NCBI GenBank assembly: GCA_030765605.1
Contig: JAVCCG010000119.1
Span: forward strand, 62,001-126,000
Length of the DNA: 64,000 nucleotides
Direction of reading: 5' to 3'
Source of the DNA: Candidatus Alcyoniella australis
GTDB lineage: Bacteria; Lernaellota; Lernaellaia; JAVCCG01; Alcyoniellaceae
Under the pieces are notes generated by a model that was given only the letters and a program-made list of their open reading frames with translations, ran no database searches and was not told the origin of the DNA. Shown here in pieces: positions 1 to 20,045 of the stretch (its first letter is position 1; every line of letters starts with the position of its first letter). The position numbers and the translations under genes are program-made.

Positions 1-1088
1 TCGCCCTGGACCCCCATCTTGCGCGAGTTGTGGCAGCCCACGCCGAGAAACAGCGCGTCGAAGCTCTGCTCGCCCAGCAGGTCGTCGATGGACAGTCCCG
101 CGCCCAGGCGTTGGCCGTATTCGATAGTCGCGCCCAAGCTGCGGATGATTTCGATCTCGCGTCCGAGCACGGTTCGCGGCAGGCGGTAATCCGGGATGCC
201 CACCGCGGCCATGCCGCCGCCCTCGGGCAGCGCCTCGAACAGCGTGGCGTCGACCCCGGCCAACTGAAGGTTGTAGGCGCAGGCCAGGCCCGCGGGTCCG
301 CAGCCGATGATCGCCGCGCGTTTGCCAAGCCTGGGCCGGGGAACCATCGGCGGAGTGCGGTGACGCTTGGTCTCGTCGTCGGCCACGTAGCGCTTGAGGA
401 AGTTTATCTGGATCGGTTCGTCGACCAGCGCGCGGCGGCAGGCCGCTTCGCAGGGCCGCACGCAGACCCGGCCCACGGTGGCGGGCAGGCAGTTGCGCTC
501 GCGGATCTTTTGCAGCGATCCGGCGAAGTCCATCTCGCCGACCCGCTCGACGTAGCAGGGGATGTCCAGGTGCGCGGGGCAGGCGTCGATGCACGGCGCG
601 GTGAGCTCGGCGTGCAATTCCAGCGGTTCCACACTCTTGCCCGCTGCCAGTTCCTCGAACGCCTCGATCTGGTGCTCGAGCATTTTCAGAATCGGGATCG
701 GCACGGTCTGTCCGACCTGGCATTTGCTGGTACGGCTGACGTTGAGCGCCAAACGCCCAAGCTCGGCGATGTCCTCGCGCGTGCCCTGACCGCTGCACAG
801 CTTGAGCAGCAGGTCAAACATCAGCCGCGTGCCCACTCGGCCGGGGAAGCACTTGCCGCAGCTCGCCGTGTCCTGGCAGCGCTTGAGGTATCCGGCGGCC
901 AAGGCCACGGGGTGCAGCTGCGGGTCGAGCAGCACGTAGCCCGCCCAGCCGATAAACGCGCGCAGCTCGCCCAACGCGGGCAGTTGCATGGGAAGCTCGA
1001 TCTCAAGGGAGGCCGACCCGTCGCCCTTACCGTCGCGGTTGTCGACGAGCTGTTCTTTCCAGATGCTGAAGACTACCTGTTGTGCCAT
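1..1088 (-). CDS. FAD-dependent oxidoreductase with NuoF-like Fe-S and DPYD_II-like domains (3' end outside window)
   Basis: Reading the minus strand from the ATG at 1088 gives 362 open codons to the window edge, so the C-terminus is missing. The N-terminal ~170 residues carry TASCGKCFPGRVG and a later SKCQVG, the four-Cys pattern of the NuoF [4Fe-4S] domain. Next comes a Cys-rich domain (CIDACPAHLDIPCY, then CVRPCEAACRR) like domain II of dihydropyrimidine dehydrogenase and GltD-type proteins. After that is an FAD-binding Rossmann start, IIGCGPAGLACAYN, and the GltD-like FDALFLGVG. By family such proteins pass electrons between NAD(P)H and Fe-S partners; the partner here is unknown. The gene diverges from the exporter cluster at 1296. 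Confidence 0.85.
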   Translation of the reverse strand, partial: MAQQVVFSIWKEQLVDNRDGKGDGSASLEIELPMQLPALGELRAFIGWAGYVLLDPQLHPVALAAGYLKRCQDTASCGKCFPGRVGTRLMFDLLLKLCSGQGTREDIAELGRLALNVSRTSKCQVGQTVPIPILKMLEHQIEAFEELAAGKSVEPLELHAELTAPCIDACPAHLDIPCYVERVGEMDFAGSLQKIRERNCLPATVGRVCVRPCEAACRRALVDEPIQINFLKRYVADDETKRHRTPPMVPRPRLGKRAAIIGCGPAGLACAYNLQLAGVDATLFEALPEGGGMAAVGIPDYRLPRTVLGREIEIIRSLGATIEYGQRLGAGLSIDDLLGEQSFDALFLGVGCHNSRKMGVQG

Positions 1089-1295: not shown

Positions 1296-2156
1296 ATGCC
1301 CGGGCTGCACAGCGTAACCTGGGATGATGATTTTGTAATCCCGGCCGGAGGACAGATACAGGTGCGTTCAGTCCTCGCTGACATCCTGCAACAGCGCTAC
1401 CTGTTGTGGAGCTTTGTGAACCAGGATCTCAAGACCCGCTACGGCGGGTCGGCGGTGGGGTTCATCTGGTCGGTAGTCAATCCGCTGCTGTTGATCGTGA
1501 TCTACACCCTGATCTTTTCCTACGTGCTGGAGGTCAAGCTCGGCGTGGGCGCGGGCACGGGCAACTACGGAATTTTCCTGTTCTGCGGGATGCTGCCCTG
1601 GATCGCGATCAACGAGGCGATCACCAAGTCGAGCACCGTGATTCTCACCAGCCGCGACCTGGTCAAGCAGGTCAACTTCCCGACGATGATGCTGCCGCTG
1701 TACGTGGTGATCTCAGCGCTGCTGCACGAGCTGATCGCGATGGTGCTGTTCGTGTTCGTACTGCTGGTCGAGGGCAGTCCGCCCTCGGTGTTTATTTTGG
1801 GAATGATCACGATTTTGCCGCTACAGGTATTGCTCACCATGGGGATCTGCCTGGTGGTCAGCAGCCTCAACGTCTACTACAAGGACGTGGCGCAGCTGGT
1901 CTACGCCGCGCTGACGATCTGGTTCTTCGCAACGCCGATCGTCTTTCCGCTCGAGGTGGTGCCGGACTGGATGCAGAAGTATTTTCTGCTCAACCCGCTG
2001 ACCCATCTGGTCAACGTCTACCGCGCGGTGCTGCTCGGCGCGGGCACGCCGGACGTGAAGGCGTTTTGCTATTTCATCCTCTGGGCCATCGGGCTGTTCG
2101 GCTTCGGCGTCAACTTCTTTAACAAGACCAGCAAGGACTTCGCCGACCTGTTATGA
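1296..2156 (+). CDS. ABC-2 type permease, polysaccharide-export (Wzm/TagG) family
   Basis: 286 residues. A cytoplasmic N-terminus with the family motif QRYLLWSFVNQDLKTRY is followed by about six hydrophobic segments, the size and layout of inner-membrane permeases exporting O-antigen or teichoic-acid-like polymers. No convincing ribosome site precedes the ATG at 1296. A possible -35/-10 (TTGTAG 1257-1262, TATCCT 1281-1286) would give an almost leaderless message, and an in-frame GTG at about residue 23 is an alternative start. The stop overlaps the next ATG (ATGA), and its ATPase partner lies one gene further on. Cargo cannot be told from the sequence. Confidence 0.88.
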   Translation: MPGLHSVTWDDDFVIPAGGQIQVRSVLADILQQRYLLWSFVNQDLKTRYGGSAVGFIWSVVNPLLLIVIYTLIFSYVLEVKLGVGAGTGNYGIFLFCGMLPWIAINEAITKSSTVILTSRDLVKQVNFPTMMLPLYVVISALLHELIAMVLFVFVLLVEGSPPSVFILGMITILPLQVLLTMGICLVVSSLNVYYKDVAQLVYAALTIWFFATPIVFPLEVVPDWMQKYFLLNPLTHLVNVYRAVLLGAGTPDVKAFCYFILWAIGLFGFGVNFFNKTSKDFADLL

Positions 2157-3466
2157 GCGGCTTTGATTTGCAACGCGCCCTGGAGCGGGCACTGACGGAC
2201 CTTGAGCCGCTCACGCGCCGCGAGCCGGGCCTTCAGCGGCTGGCCCGCGAGCTGCAACGCGAGGAGCGGCCCCTTGATCAGCGCAAACGGCTGCTGCGGC
2301 TGGCCGGGATCGTCACCGACCGCGCCTACGTCGGGCCGACGATTGTGCACCTGGACGTGGTCGGCGTGTGCAACCTCAACTGCATCTACTGCCGCGATCA
2401 CTCGCCGTACCTGGTCGGCCGCGAGAGCTGGCGCTCAATGGAGATGCCGCTGGAGCGGATCAAACTCGCGGTGGAGCAGGGGATCGAGATCGGCGTGGAA
2501 CGCTTCTCCATGGCCGGGGCGGGCGAGCCGCGGATGCACTCGCGTTTCGCGCAGATCATCGAATACATGATCGAGCGCGACGTGGAGTTCGAGATCTTCA
2601 CCAACGGTACGCTGCTTAGCGAGGACGACCTGCAACTGCTCAGCCGCGCCCAACGCTTAAAACTCTACTTCTCGATCAGCGCGGCGAGCGAACGCACCTA
2701 CAAGGCGTTCCGGCCCGAGCTCGGCGGCGAACTGCTGCCGCGCATCGAGCGCGCGATCTCGCGTTTGGCGCAACTGCGCGGCGACGCCGCGGGCCCGCGC
2801 AGCGTGATCGTCCATGTGCTTTGCTCGATGAATGTTCACGAGCTGATGCAGTTCGGCGAGCAGGCCCTGCGCACCGGAGCGGACGAGCTGCAACTCAAGC
2901 TTTGCGAGTACGAGCCGTACAACCAATCGATCATGCTCGACCGCGATCAGCTTGATCGGGTGCGCGACGCTCTGCCGCAGCTCAAGGCCGAGCTGGCGGC
3001 GCACGGCGTGACCGTGCACGACAATATCGATTATCAGCTCGAACAGATCGACGCTGAGACCGGATTGTTCTCGCGCGAGCTGTACCGGCAAATCGGCTGC
3101 TACATCGGCTTTGATTTGGTGCGCGTGCGGCGCGACGGCCGGATCGCTTTCTGCTGCGGGCTGAAGTGGGTCGGCGAGCTGGAGCGCGACGGATTGGCCG
3201 CTCACTTCTTCGGTCCGCAAATGGATCGCCTGCGCCACGCGGCCAAGCGCAGCTTCGTGGGCTGCAACGCCACGTTGCCCAACGGCGATCCGCTGCTCGC
3301 CGCGGACTGCCACCGCTGCTACAACTACATCACCAACCGCCATCTGCAACGCGACCTGGAGCGCCTCGATCTGTGGGAGCCGATAGTGCGCCTGGTCCGG
3401 TCCGACGACTGCGGGTGCGTGGCGCAATCAGCAACGCAGACCGCCGTAAATCGAGGGGCCGAGTGA
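2153..3466 (+). CDS. Radical SAM protein with C-terminal Cys-rich (SPASM-like) region
   Basis: 437 residues. The [4Fe-4S]/SAM motif CNLNCIYC lies near residue 71, followed by a TIM-barrel-like stretch with GAGEPRMH and FTNGTLL. The C-terminal third has extra cysteines (IGCYIG, FCCGL, VGCNA, DCHRCYN), as in SPASM/twitch proteins that bind auxiliary clusters. The N-terminal ~60 residues are helical and charged. It sits between the permease and ATPase genes, coupled by ATGA and GTGA overlaps, so it is probably translated with the exporter. The protein at 5701 is a paralogue, sharing the pre-motif segment (AYVGPTIVHLDV versus VFIGPLTFHLDV) and the tail pattern. Substrate unknown. Confidence 0.85.
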   Translation: MSGFDLQRALERALTDLEPLTRREPGLQRLARELQREERPLDQRKRLLRLAGIVTDRAYVGPTIVHLDVVGVCNLNCIYCRDHSPYLVGRESWRSMEMPLERIKLAVEQGIEIGVERFSMAGAGEPRMHSRFAQIIEYMIERDVEFEIFTNGTLLSEDDLQLLSRAQRLKLYFSISAASERTYKAFRPELGGELLPRIERAISRLAQLRGDAAGPRSVIVHVLCSMNVHELMQFGEQALRTGADELQLKLCEYEPYNQSIMLDRDQLDRVRDALPQLKAELAAHGVTVHDNIDYQLEQIDAETGLFSRELYRQIGCYIGFDLVRVRRDGRIAFCCGLKWVGELERDGLAAHFFGPQMDRLRHAAKRSFVGCNATLPNGDPLLAADCHRCYNYITNRHLQRDLERLDLWEPIVRLVRSDDCGCVAQSATQTAVNRGAE

Positions 3467-4683
3467 TTCGCGTCGAGAAACTGATCAAGGACTACCGGGT
3501 CTACCCCGGTCCCACCGCGCGGCTGCTCGAGGCCATGCCGTTTGCGCGCAAGAAACGCCACACCCTGCGCCGCGCCCTGGACGGCGTGAGCTTCGAGGTC
3601 GGCGGCGGCGAATGTCTGGGCGTGATCGGCGCCAACGGCTCGGGCAAGAGCACGTTGCTTAAAATTCTCGCCGGCACGACCAGCCCGACAACGGGCAAGG
3701 TCGAGCTGCACGGCGCGGTGAGCTACATCCTCGATCCTACGGCCGGGTTCAATTTCGATTTCTCGGCCCACGCCAACATCTACACCAAGTGCGCGCTGCT
3801 TGGGCTGGACCGCGATCAGACGGCCGAGCTCTACGACTCGATCGTCGACTTCAGCGGGCTGCGCGATCGGATCGAGGATCCGCTACGCACCTACTCCACG
3901 GGCATGGTGCTGCGGTTGGGCTTCGCGATCGTGATCCACGTTGACTTCGACGTGTTGCTGATCGACGAGGTGCTCAGCGTGGGCGACCTGGTGTTCCAGA
4001 CCAAGTGCGTGACGATGATCCGCCAGTTCCGCAAGGCCGGTAAGACGATCGTCGTGGCCAGTCACGCCATGGGCGAGATCTCGGAGTTCTCCGACCGCGT
4101 GCTGTATTTGCGGCAGGGCCAGGTGCATCGCCTGGGCACGGCCGAGGACGTGATCCGCGAGTACACCGAGGACTACGAGCGGCGCAAGGCCACAATCGAC
4201 CTCAGCGAGTCCGAGCGTCGGCTGCTGCGCGGATCGTTCGATCCCGGCGGCACGATCCGCATGGCCCAGGTGAGCCTGCTCGACGAACAGGGCAATCCGA
4301 TCGAGGAGCTCGAACCCGGCGATCCGCTGTTGGTGCAGATTATCTGGGAGGCGGCCAAGCCGATCCACAACCCATGCTTCAGGGTCCAGGTCTACGGCGC
4401 GGCCGGACTGTTTCTCAGCGGGACCAACACCTATCGGCACGAGATCGACCTGGGCACGCTCGAGGGTCGGGGCACGGTGGTCTGCCGTTTTCCGCAATTC
4501 CCGTTTCTCGAGGGCGAGTACTTCATCAACGTCGGAATTTGGCCCGACGAGTTCCGTTCGTTCAACACGCGCAAGCCCTACGACTTGCACGAACTGATGC
4601 ACACGGTGCGCGTGCGCAGCTCACGCCGCCACGGCGGCGGCACGGTCTACGCGCCGACGAGCTGGGAGGTCAAGGACGATTGA
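3463..4683 (+). CDS. ABC transporter ATPase with Wzt-like C-terminal domain
   Basis: I place the start at the GTG at 3463 (MIRVEKLIKDYRVYPGP), which overlaps the upstream stop as GTGA; the frame is open further upstream but that part is shadow. 406 residues. Walker A is GANGSGKST, the signature region is YSTGMVLRLGFA, and Walker B is VLLIDEVLSVGD, with the switch His in VVASHAMGE. The insertion before the signature and a ~130-residue beta-rich C-terminus (from about residue 270) match Wzt/TagH ATPases whose extra domain reads the glycan being exported. It should pair with the permease at 1296. Confidence 0.88.
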   Translation: MIRVEKLIKDYRVYPGPTARLLEAMPFARKKRHTLRRALDGVSFEVGGGECLGVIGANGSGKSTLLKILAGTTSPTTGKVELHGAVSYILDPTAGFNFDFSAHANIYTKCALLGLDRDQTAELYDSIVDFSGLRDRIEDPLRTYSTGMVLRLGFAIVIHVDFDVLLIDEVLSVGDLVFQTKCVTMIRQFRKAGKTIVVASHAMGEISEFSDRVLYLRQGQVHRLGTAEDVIREYTEDYERRKATIDLSESERRLLRGSFDPGGTIRMAQVSLLDEQGNPIEELEPGDPLLVQIIWEAAKPIHNPCFRVQVYGAAGLFLSGTNTYRHEIDLGTLEGRGTVVCRFPQFPFLEGEYFINVGIWPDEFRSFNTRKPYDLHELMHTVRVRSSRRHGGGTVYAPTSWEVKDD

Positions 4684-5696
4684 GCGACGCGCGGGCGGCC
4701 AACCGCGAGCTGTCCGACCGCGAGCGCGGCGAGGGGCTTGAGGTCTACCAATCGCTGCCGCTGCAACTCCAGCTCGAGCCGACCAACCGTTGCAACCTCA
4801 ATTGCCAAAGCTGCGCGCGGCATAGTTACGACTGCGCGATGAACCGGCCGATCGATTTCTCGCCACAACTTCTGGAACGCGTGCGGCCGCTGTTCGCCAC
4901 GGCCGAACAGGTGCTGCTCGGCGGGTACGGCGAGCCGACGTTGGCCCCGCGTCTGCTCGAGATCGCCGCGGCAATCAAATCCGTGGGCGCGCATCTGAGC
5001 ATGGTGACCAACGGCACACTACTGAGTTCCAAGCTGTGCGGCTCGCTGGCCGCGCTGCCGCTGGACGAGCTGCTGCTTTCGATCGACGCGGCGCGTCCCG
5101 AGACGCTCAAACGCCTGCGCGGCGTGAGCCTCGAGCTGTTGCAGCGCAACGTCGATAGGCTCAACAAAGCGCGCGGCGAAGGGCCGCCGCGCCTGGTGCT
5201 GCAGTGCGTGCTGCAACGCGACAACGTCGAGCAGTTGCCCGAGCTGGTGGGGCTTGCGCAACGCTGGCGCGCTTCGGGCCTGCGCGCGGTGCATCAGCGG
5301 ATCTACCAGCGTGGCCAACAGCAGCGTTCGCTGTTGCTCGATCCGCAGGCCGCGGCGGGTCCGTTCGACGAGGCGCGGAAGCTGGCTGATGATTTGGGCC
5401 TCGAGCTCGAGCTGCCGCCGCTGCAAGGCCAGGCCGATTGCGTAATGCCGCTGGAGATGCTGCTGGTGCGAGCCGAGGGCACGGTGCACGGCTGCTGCTC
5501 CGCGGTGTTCAGCGGCTCGCCGTGTACTCTCGAGCTGGGTTCGGCGCTGCAAAGCGACCTGCATGAGCTGTACAACGCCGAGCCGATGCGCCGTTTCCGC
5601 GCCGCGTTTCACGGCCGCGGCGAGTTTCCCGAACCCTGTCAAGATTGCGCCTTTCGCAACGCGGACGCGCAGTCCCACTTTCGGCCGCTGGATTAG
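4680..5696 (+). CDS. Radical SAM protein (SPASM-like C-terminus)
   Basis: 338 residues if translation starts at the TTG at 4680, which overlaps the ATPase stop as TTGA; no ATG is well placed. The cluster motif CNLNCQSC is at about residue 38, followed by GGYGEPTL and VTNGTLL, standard radical SAM strands. C-terminal cysteines (GCCSAVF, SPC, CQDCAF) suggest an auxiliary cluster site. It lacks the longer N-terminus of the other two radical SAM proteins in the unit, so it is a distinct subfamily. Co-translation with an exporter ATPase suggests it modifies the exported molecule or a precursor (inference). Confidence 0.82.
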   Translation: MSDARAANRELSDRERGEGLEVYQSLPLQLQLEPTNRCNLNCQSCARHSYDCAMNRPIDFSPQLLERVRPLFATAEQVLLGGYGEPTLAPRLLEIAAAIKSVGAHLSMVTNGTLLSSKLCGSLAALPLDELLLSIDAARPETLKRLRGVSLELLQRNVDRLNKARGEGPPRLVLQCVLQRDNVEQLPELVGLAQRWRASGLRAVHQRIYQRGQQQRSLLLDPQAAAGPFDEARKLADDLGLELELPPLQGQADCVMPLEMLLVRAEGTVHGCCSAVFSGSPCTLELGSALQSDLHELYNAEPMRRFRAAFHGRGEFPEPCQDCAFRNADAQSHFRPLD

Positions 5697-5700
5697 CCTG

Positions 5701-7323
5701 ATGGACGTTCCGCGGGCGATCTTCGACGACGATGTGCAACAGCACGACCGGCTGATCAACATCCCCGGCGCATTGGCCGCGCTCGAGAGCGGCCTGCGCG
5801 ACAATCCGGCTACAAGCGCGCGGCCGTTGCTGGTGCGCGTGCATTTGCAAAATTTTTGGAAGCTGCCGCAATTGATCGAGCACGCGGCAAAGCTTTGCGG
5901 CCTGCGCCTGCCGCAACGCCCGGCGTTGCGAGTCGAGGGGCTGGACGAGCTGCCAACGGCGTTGGAGCAGCACCTGGATCTGCTGCGCAACGATCTGCGC
6001 GGCACTGCGCTGCATTTGGACGACTCGGATCACGTGCCGCGGATGGTGATCGACAACCTGGCCCAAAGTTGCCGCGCCCGGCCCGAGGAACGCACGCACC
6101 TGCTGCGGCTGCTGGGAGTGCTGGCCGACACGGTATTCATCGGCCCGCTGACCTTCCACCTGGACGTGAGCAACCTGTGCAACACCGACTGCGTGTTCTG
6201 CGGCCTGCACTCGGGCCTGCTGCGCCCCGGAGATCAACTGCTGCACGGTCGCAGGATCACGCCGGGTTGGGAGCGCGCGCGGATCTCGCGCGAGCTGTTC
6301 CACGAGCTGATCCAGGACATCGCGCTGTGCGGCGCGGGCGAGGACCTGCTGTTCACCGGCGAGGGAGAGCCGCTGACCCATCCCGAATTTCCAACGATGG
6401 TGCGCGCGGCCAAGGCGCGCGGCGCGCATTTGACGGTGTTTACCAACGGGCTGCTGCTCGACCAGAGTTTGGCGCGGCTGCTGGTGGAGCAGCGGGTCGA
6501 CTTGCTCTATTGGTCGCTCAGCGCGGCCAGCGCCCAGACGTTTGCCCGGGTGCAGCCCTCGCAGCCCGCGGGCGCGTTCGAGCGCACCGTGGGGCAGGTG
6601 CGCAAGCTTTTAGAGCTGCGGCGGAGCAGCAATGCGCCGGGTCCGCGGGTGGTGCTGGCCCACGTGCTGGTCAAGCAAAACGTGCACGAATGCCTGCGGG
6701 TGTTTGAGCTGGCCCGCGAGCTGGGGGTCGAGATCGTGCGCTATCAGCTGGCCCACAGCTGCGGCCCGGGATTCGAGTCCAACCTGATCGGGCCGCAGGA
6801 GCTGGAACTGGCGGCCGAGCAGATCCAGCGCGCCCGCGAACTGGCCCGCGATTGCGGGATCACGGTGCTCTCCAACATCGATGCTCAGCTCGCGGCGGCC
6901 GGGCGCAGCCTGGGGCAGGGCGGCTCCTCGGATCGCTGGAGCACGGAGCTGATCAGCGAGGCCGGTTGTTTGGCCGGCTGGTTCTTCTCCCGGGCGTTCA
7001 GCGACGGCAGCCTGAGTTTCTGCTGCCACGACAAGATCGTCGGCGACCTGACCTCCGAGCGTTTTTGCGATATCTGGCGCTCGCAACGCCTGCGCGAGAT
7101 CCGGCGCGCGGCGCGGCTGTTCGACCCGCAACACGATAATCCCGAGCTGGGCGCGGGCCCTGCGGGCGGTCCGCTGATCGGGCCGGACTGCGATACCTGC
7201 GGCAACTACGAGATAATCGCGCGGGCGATGCACGACCTGACCCGCTTGGGGCTGTGGCCGATCGTGCAGCGCGAGCGCGCCGAGGCGCGGCGCTTCCATC
7301 GCCTTAACTCGGATTATTCATAA
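5701..7323 (+). CDS. Radical SAM protein with long N-terminal region
   Basis: 540 residues from the ATG at 5701, four bases after the previous stop. The first ~150 residues resemble nothing I recognise (leucine- and arginine-rich, probably helical). The radical SAM motif CNTDCVFC is at about residue 160, followed by FTGEGEPLTHPEF and FTNGLLL. The C-terminus carries AGCLAGW, FCCHDK and DCDTCGNYE, aligning with the protein at 2153. The last codons and the stop lie inside an end of the dispersed repeat (7306-7384), so the natural C-terminus may have been altered by that insertion. Last gene of the exporter/radical SAM unit. Confidence 0.83.
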   Translation: MDVPRAIFDDDVQQHDRLINIPGALAALESGLRDNPATSARPLLVRVHLQNFWKLPQLIEHAAKLCGLRLPQRPALRVEGLDELPTALEQHLDLLRNDLRGTALHLDDSDHVPRMVIDNLAQSCRARPEERTHLLRLLGVLADTVFIGPLTFHLDVSNLCNTDCVFCGLHSGLLRPGDQLLHGRRITPGWERARISRELFHELIQDIALCGAGEDLLFTGEGEPLTHPEFPTMVRAAKARGAHLTVFTNGLLLDQSLARLLVEQRVDLLYWSLSAASAQTFARVQPSQPAGAFERTVGQVRKLLELRRSSNAPGPRVVLAHVLVKQNVHECLRVFELARELGVEIVRYQLAHSCGPGFESNLIGPQELELAAEQIQRARELARDCGITVLSNIDAQLAAAGRSLGQGGSSDRWSTELISEAGCLAGWFFSRAFSDGSLSFCCHDKIVGDLTSERFCDIWRSQRLREIRRAARLFDPQHDNPELGAGPAGGPLIGPDCDTCGNYEIIARAMHDLTRLGLWPIVQRERAEARRFHRLNSDYS

Positions 7324-19410: not shown

Positions 19411-20045
19411 TGATCGAGGTTTGCGAGCTGTTCGCCGGCCTGGCGGGAGAGGGCGTCTGGAGCGGCCGTGCCGCGGCCTTCGTGCGCCTGTCGGGCTGCA
19501 ACCTGCGCTGTTGCTGGTGCGACACGAGCTACGCCTGGGAGGGCGGCGAACGCATGCGCCGCGCGAGCGTGGTCGTCGCTATACGACGCATGGCGCTTAA
19601 GCGCGTGGTGGTCACTGGCGGCGAGCCGCTGTTGCAGCGCGAGACTCCGCGACTGCTCGCGGACCTGCTCGATCGCGGATTGCACACGGCGCTGGAGACC
19701 AACGGCACGTTTGCGCTGGACCAGGTGCCCCAGGGCGTGCACATCGCGATGGACCTCAAGCCGCCCTCGTCGGGCCACGCTGATAGCGTGCGCTGGTCCA
19801 ACCTCGAACGGCTGGGCCCCAACGACGAGCTAAAGGTAGTGATTGCCGACCGCGCGGATTTGGACTGGCTGGTGCGCGTGCTCCACGAGCGGGCCGATCA
19901 GCTCAACGCGCCGGTCTACGTGCAGCCGGCACACGGCAGGCTCGCGGCGCGCAGGCTGGCCGACTGGTTGGTCGAGCAGCGGCTGGACCTGCGTCTGGGA
20001 ATTCAGCTCCACAAGCTGCTGTGGGGCACGGAGCGCGGTCGATGA
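19410..20045 (+). CDS. queE: 7-carboxy-7-deazaguanine synthase
   Basis: 211 residues from the ATG overlapping the apt stop. Short radical SAM protein with the cluster motif CNLRCCWC and GLAGEGVWSGRAAAFVRLSGC at the substrate site, then VVVTGGEPLLQ. QueE makes 7-carboxy-7-deazaguanine, the ring contraction step toward queuosine. It couples to queC by ATGA. No queD or queF lies in the window. Confidence 0.94.
   Translation: MIEVCELFAGLAGEGVWSGRAAAFVRLSGCNLRCCWCDTSYAWEGGERMRRASVVVAIRRMALKRVVVTGGEPLLQRETPRLLADLLDRGLHTALETNGTFALDQVPQGVHIAMDLKPPSSGHADSVRWSNLERLGPNDELKVVIADRADLDWLVRVLHERADQLNAPVYVQPAHGRLAARRLADWLVEQRLDLRLGIQLHKLLWGTERGR

Follow-up and report, generated by a model that had tools for sequence, protein, structure and literature searches.

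Radical SAM enzymes interleaved with a Wzm/Wzt-type exporter in Candidatus Lernaellota

Background

The closest described counterparts of the exporter considered here are the Wzm-Wzt systems of Aquifex aeolicus and Escherichia coli O9a, in which a permease of the ABC-2 type (ABC, ATP-binding cassette) is paired with an ATPase that joins a nucleotide-binding domain (NBD) to a carbohydrate-binding domain (CBD). Wzm/Wzt systems are known to use methyl, (methyl)phosphate or 3-deoxy-D-manno-oct-2-ulosonic acid (Kdo) groups as export caps, and in Aquifex the CBD contacts a 3-O-methyl cap through Leu300, Asn313, Thr346, Ala348, His350 and Trp362 (PMC9445017). In this study we describe an operon from Candidatus Alcyoniella australis that resembles these systems, found in a stretch of 64,000 nucleotides (the window; GenBank assembly GCA_030765605.1, contig JAVCCG010000119.1, positions 62,001 to 126,000). 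The organism belongs to GTDB phylum FEN-1099, which corresponds to Candidatus Lernaellota/Podoxiota (PMC11382960). The operon shares with the Aquifex and O9a type an ABC-2 permease and an NBD-CBD ATPase of equal domain order, and it retains the pocket Asn, but it differs in having three radical S-adenosylmethionine (SAM) enzymes, here called rSAM_A, rSAM_B and rSAM_C, interleaved with the exporter genes, and in lacking a WbdD-like kinase/methyltransferase. We consider it rather probable that a Wzm/Wzt system here exports a lipid-linked surface glycan and that the radical SAM enzymes are dedicated to modifying either the glycan itself or a sugar that goes into its chain or cap.

The radical enzymes of the operon are oxygen-sensitive. 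Members of the SPASM/Twitch type, such as PqqE, SkfB, BtrN and BlsE, have like the operon enzymes a CX3CX2C motif and a SPASM-type C-terminal Fe-S domain. SkfB is a maturase of ribosomally synthesised and post-translationally modified peptides (RiPPs), BlsE and BtrN act on sugars or aminocyclitols, and DesII is a nucleotide-sugar enzyme, the TDP-4-amino-4,6-dideoxyglucose ammonia-lyase.

The operon and its conservation

Between positions 1296 and 7323 of the window, direct reading of the sequence gives five coupled genes in the order permease, rSAM_A, Wzt-like ATPase, rSAM_B and rSAM_C, joined by overlaps of ATGA (2153-2156), GTGA (3463-3466) and TTGA (4680-4683) and then by a gap of four bases (5697-5700) (Table 1). 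A sequence-only reading of the window had proposed five strictly coupled genes with this order and these junctions, and this is borne out both by the direct reading and by Pfam matches above the gathering cut-offs. The same five genes were returned by a codon-usage gene finder, a consistency check only, as it was trained partly on them. In this genome NuoF/G-like genes lie upstream of the operon and tRNA-Val and thrS downstream.

The permease is an ABC-2 protein of the polysaccharide type, its best NCBIfam matches being galactan/capsule Wzm/KpsM families, under cut-off, and the ATPase has both the NBD, with its motifs intact, and a Wzt_C CBD. The best solved relative of the ATPase is the Aquifex aeolicus WzmWzt structure 8dku (5e-74). 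Among the best matches listed, no operon protein reached an NCBIfam equivalog cut-off. From these likenesses we infer a Wzm/Wzt-type ABC exporter whose predicted cargo is a lipid-linked surface glycan.

Conservation was followed in seven genomes of the phylum, the window's own and G001-G006, the only six others of its class in the collection. Orthologues of Wzt and rSAM_B occur in all seven and are always adjacent, at ~40-48% identity, and because of this the operon is not a chance arrangement. Around this pair the other genes vary in position: rSAM_A is directly upstream of the ATPase in five of the seven genomes, rSAM_C is next after rSAM_B in four (and ~27 kb off in G005), and a fourth radical SAM gene, rSAM_D, stands behind rSAM_C in G002, G004 and G006. 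Every genome has a permease orthologue, but just three, the window's own, G002 and G006, have it next to the operon. G001 and G003 yielded the bare Wzt-rSAM_B cassette only, the contig of G001 stopping ~0.8 kb upstream of Wzt. In G005, a metagenome-assembled genome (MAG) that is 77% complete, the permease and rSAM_B are in split frames, which may be assembly errors or decay. Start/stop overlaps are also present in the operons of relatives, and the complete five-gene order, together with the fourth radical SAM gene, was found again in two other genera. The earlier reading had named an order unique to this genome as the result that would refute it, and the neighbourhood comparison places the same order in sister genera. 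Vertical inheritance accounts for much of this conservation, and the informative point is the inseparable Wzt-rSAM_B pair. A contig scan with the rSAM_C alignment gave matches only in two members of the phylum, the MAGs fen_1099 and FR-FEN-1099-1, and one with rSAM_A alone gave no match.

In three genera a TATAAT sequence begins ~12 bases before the rSAM_A start codon (L033 upstream of 9949, L034 of 8956 and L035 of 11420), which suggests a conserved, near-leaderless operon promoter in those genera. Leaderless starts as a general trait of the phylum were also considered and rejected, the -10-like motif not being concentrated at leading genes generally.

Wzt and radical SAM pairs outside the phylum

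When rSAM_B and Wzt profiles were searched against 386 genomes and the coordinates joined, neighbouring Wzt-rSAM/SPASM pairs were found outside the phylum in G045, G190, G134 and G271, none of which belongs to Lernaellota as far as the kinship data show. An adjacent radical SAM gene is present at three of the 23 nearest outside Wzt loci with fetched flanks, and the pairing is therefore a minority trait of Wzt genes. In a maximum-likelihood tree of the radical SAM proteins the Lernaellota rSAM_B sequences and that of G193 form one supported clade, and the Wzt-adjacent enzymes from other phyla are placed elsewhere, at three positions, the starred branches forcing at least three changes. On this placement the pairing apparently arose repeatedly by separate recruitments, and such repeated origin argues for a functional link between Wzt and the radical SAM enzyme.

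The cluster of G045 reads Wzm-Wzt-rSAM-GT2-DUF6485-B12-rSAM-rSAM-rSAM-rSAM and ends in a further B12-rSAM-like gene, and from Wzt onward the genes of G190 follow this order, with no DUF6485 call and with the contig ending upstream of Wzt; domains were scanned in G045 only, those of G190 being assigned by sequence likeness. As in the Lernaellota operon Wzt is followed directly by a radical SAM/SPASM gene, and in G045 Wzm stands ahead and there is an ATGA-type overlap, whereas the radical SAM enzyme is from a different clade and the clusters include a GT2 glycosyltransferase and B12-binding radical SAM enzymes. A GT2 gene is also found beside the rSAM_B-clade gene of G193. Among the papers searched none described a Wzt-rSAM pairing, the few that name both placing them in unrelated passages. 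The arrays of radical SAM and B12-rSAM genes with GT2 behind Wzt can be seen at L187:1400-9192 and L188, and the DUF6485 protein of L187 is 65 amino acids (aa) long.

The carbohydrate-binding pocket

Profile alignments, with a PDB numbering offset of one, map Leu300, Asn313, Thr346, Ala348 and His350 of Aquifex to Q309, N322, N356, G358 and W360 of the window's Wzt, forming a predicted pocket; Trp362 has no mappable counterpart in this CBD. All five predicted pocket residues are invariant in the seven orthologues, against a background of 26 invariant columns among the 144 of the CBD (P = 1.4e-4). Four of the five differ from Aquifex, Leu, Thr, Ala and His giving way to Gln, Asn, Gly and Trp throughout the phylum, and the hydrophobic methyl pocket turns polar. 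Among the 23 outside Wzts a near-identical signature (RQ, N, G, W-x-DE, S) occurs only in that of G193, which is the best outside Wzt (3e-109), and G193 alone among the outside genomes has a protein of the rSAM_B clade. This joint occurrence of pocket and rSAM_B is one independent instance, and the two genes sit on separate contigs in G193.

The radical SAM enzymes

rSAM_A and rSAM_C are paralogous (30% identity, 4e-49) and rSAM_B, more remote from them (1e-13 to 1e-16), represents a separate subfamily. The earlier pairing of the genes at 2153 and 5701, with that at 4680 set apart, is consistent with this. Each has the PF04055 domain, and the PF13186 SPASM domain is found in rSAM_B and rSAM_C and not in rSAM_A. 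The CX3CX2C motif and the later C...CC...CxxC set are shared by the three and invariant among their orthologues, and on this ground all three look active. The full seven-cysteine SPASM motif, with two auxiliary clusters, is absent; unlike full SPASM enzymes the operon proteins hold five conserved later cysteines.

By sequence, the nearest solved relatives of rSAM_B are PqqE, BtrN and BlsE, that of rSAM_C is BlsE, and those of a profile of rSAM_A, rSAM_C and rSAM_D are SkfB and BlsE. An AlphaFold2 (AF2) model of rSAM_C (pLDDT, the predicted local distance difference test, 86; pTM, the predicted template-modelling score, 0.88) gave a near-full-length Foldseek match to DesII (8e-14) over ~500 columns including the N-terminal domain, with a TM-score of 0.49/0.55 and a root-mean-square deviation of 11 Å. 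For rSAM_B the model is of lower quality (pLDDT 67); its matches include SkfB and PqqE.

Glycan genes near the operon in relatives

Neighbouring genes in G002, G004 and G006 encode, among others, GT4 (WecA/MraY type) and GT1 glycosyltransferases, a Wzy_C/O-antigen ligase, a Wzx-like flippase/methyltransferase and a 1312-aa MurG-MurJ-HEAT fusion, the domains of each having been scanned on one genome's copy and assigned by homology in the others. The fusion keeps its place next to the permease in G004 as well, at a distance of ~78 kb from the operon; it was rejected as a core part of the system, being confined to family f3. In family f2 the permease is near a UDP-GlcNAc 2-epimerase, recognised by Pfam in L102 and through sequence similarity in L103 and L104. 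The immediate neighbourhood in the window's own genome has neither this epimerase nor a glycosyltransferase, ligase or flippase-type gene. The sequence-only reading, which reported no glycosyltransferase, was right for that neighbourhood but not for relatives, with GT4 and GT1 in sister genera and GT2 outside the phylum. Its proposal of a dedicated modify-and-export system agrees with the conserved order and coupling and with the recurrence of Wzt-rSAM pairs elsewhere; what these neighbours do not support is its further suggestion of a cargo that is no standard O-antigen, read as one outside the surface glycans.

Genes for importers of the FecCD/BtuCD type are found beside the operon in two families (L035:11523-14277 by domain scan and L036:5109-6967 by homology) and possibly supply iron or cobalamin.

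What the radical SAM enzymes act on

Several results weigh against the favoured reading of a glycan exporter with dedicated radical SAM partners. In four of the seven genomes the permease lies apart from the operon, and in the window's genome no glycosyltransferase was found in the operon, in two scanned upstream genes or among the downstream housekeeping genes, nor any O-antigen ligase beside the operon. The match to the Aquifex CBD is weak (2e-4) and its alignment stops one residue short of His350, W360 having been mapped by ungapped extension one residue past the aligned block. G193 may be just a near relative of the phylum; a PheT control on its closeness found no PheT match there and is uninformative on kinship. 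Foldseek ranks SkfB first for both the rSAM_B and the rSAM_C model and also places SuiB and PqqE high, PqqE for rSAM_B in particular; fold and solved relatives, which fit peptide and sugar substrates alike, do not settle the substrate class.

Of the other explanations, the one that survives best is an ABC-dependent O-antigen system of the standard type: the radical SAM enzymes would supply the chain with a nucleotide-sugar precursor, for instance a deoxy or amino sugar as with DesII, and the CBD would recognise some other feature. The likeness in fold of rSAM_C to DesII over most of its length would fit, as would the O-antigen ligase and flippase in sister genera, but rSAM_C is far under the cut-off of the DesII equivalog TIGR04426 (23 bits against 450), there are no desosamine genes nearby, and the genes seen next to the operon include no aminotransferase or dehydratase for nucleotide sugars. 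The linkage, moreover, is to Wzt and not to genes for sugar nucleotides, and rSAM_B, the partner most tightly linked to Wzt, does not have DesII among its best matches; we regard this explanation as somewhat unlikely. It is less likely again that the enzymes form a cassette for another pathway, for example for a cofactor or metalloenzyme, that merely shares the operon. The genome is very rich in radical SAM domains (114 in 4.3 Mb), the nearest NCBIfam families of rSAM_B are metalloenzyme/tungsten-oxidoreductase maturases, far under cut-off, and the unlinked permease could be read in the same way; against this, the Wzt-rSAM_B adjacency is kept in all seven genomes while all else moves, down to the bare cassette of G001 and G003, and separate recruitments apparently took place outside the phylum. 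A ribosomal or small peptide cargo, matured as a RiPP by the radical SAM enzymes and exported by the ABC pair, is quite improbable: SPASM enzymes are often peptide maturases, and the SkfB match is in keeping with that, but the ATPase has a carbohydrate-binding domain, glycan genes surround the operons of relatives, Pfam finds no PqqD or RiPP recognition element (RRE) domain, the rSAM_C model shows no three-strand RRE layout in its N-terminal domain, and no small open reading frame recurs beside the operon in the phylum, the only matches being marginal ones of <=25 aa at unrelated positions, which were rejected, although a short unconserved precursor could escape such a search. In this respect the operon enzymes differ from PqqE, SkfB, BtrN and BlsE, being co-transcribed with an exporter and having no peptide partner that was found, and the earlier statement that there is no precursor peptide and no obvious RiPP stands.

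Returning to the glycan, we infer that this is the substrate and that the three radical SAM enzymes probably modify the exported sugar chain. In favour stand the exporter class, the coupling and phylum-wide conservation of the operon, the glycan genes near it in relatives, the separate recruitments of radical SAM/SPASM genes beside Wzt, the invariant but altered CBD pocket with its counterpart in G193, and the likeness to sugar-type enzymes, DesII for the rSAM_C model and BlsE and BtrN by sequence. The chain would be assembled on an undecaprenyl-type lipid by glycosyltransferases encoded at other sites of the genome, and the glycan, or the sugar used for building or capping it, would be modified in the cytoplasm. 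rSAM_B, together with rSAM_A, rSAM_C and in relatives rSAM_D, might carry out a radical step on the sugar, which could be an epimerisation, a dehydrogenation, a deoxygenation/deamination or a decarboxylation. The CBD of Wzt would then bind the modified non-reducing end and so license transport through Wzm. That the radical SAM product is the cap read by the CBD is the least certain part of this scheme, although it fits the CBD data. The five operon proteins include no enzyme known to form export caps, whether a methyltransferase, a kinase or a Kdo transferase. The proposed cap would be the radical-chemistry counterpart of the methyl/phosphate capping by WbdD. The wider idea, that a mark made by radical SAM enzymes on the glycan end is an export licence read by Wzt, and that such pairs of cap writer and cap reader were assembled independently in several phyla, is offered tentatively, as a possibility that we would not yet favour. 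A radical-made cap, if true, would add to the chemistry known for bacterial surface glycans and assign a function to a group of so far unassigned SPASM enzymes. The Wzt-rSAM_B pair provides a testable writer-reader hypothesis with defined pocket residues and, for a phylum that has been little studied, connects the cell envelope with anaerobic radical chemistry.

Table 1. Positions in the window of the operon genes and of their predicted functional sites
Feature	Position	Strand	Evidence
Wzm-like ABC-2 permease, 286 aa	1296..2156	+	PF01061 4e-17; ~50% identity orthologue in 7/7 phylum genomes
rSAM_A, radical SAM, 437 aa	2153..3466	+	PF04055
rSAM_A cysteines	CX3CX2C from codon 2369; C316, CC334-335, CxxC386-389	+	Invariant in orthologues
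Wzt-like ATPase, NBD + C-terminal CBD, 406 aa	3463..4683	+	PF00005 + PF14524 (Wzt_C)
Wzt CBD	4246..4680	+	Predicted cap-pocket residues mapped on Aquifex contacts
Predicted pocket codons	Q309 at 4387, N322 at 4426, N356 at 4528, G358 at 4534, W360 at 4540; trap-loop PDE 361-363		
rSAM_B, radical SAM/SPASM, 338 aa	4680..5696	+	PF04055 + PF13186
rSAM_C, radical SAM/SPASM, ~140-aa N-terminal domain, 540 aa	5701..7323	+	PF04055 + PF13186

Other radical SAM genes

Two more radical SAM domains lie in the window outside the operon, at 19491 and 33262. Fusions of two radical SAM units of the rSAM_A/rSAM_C family are found in six genomes of the phylum (L040:2-3397, L041, L042, L043, L044 and L045), and in G002 and G006 they are followed by a relative of rSAM_B. 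On the window's contig, ~24 kb upstream of the window, a 2014-aa protein (G000:C119:31952-37996(-), or L039:3952-9996) combines four radical SAM domains with B12-binding domains and a single SPASM domain, and colinear homologues with 41-49% identity occur in five further genomes from the phylum, with three domains in one of them. A literature search on tandem radical SAM fusions returned nothing relevant. A still longer open frame of 2358 aa on contig G000:C110 (L046:12211-19287(+)) has five radical SAM, four B12-binding and one SPASM domain, and lies among a run of further radical SAM genes.

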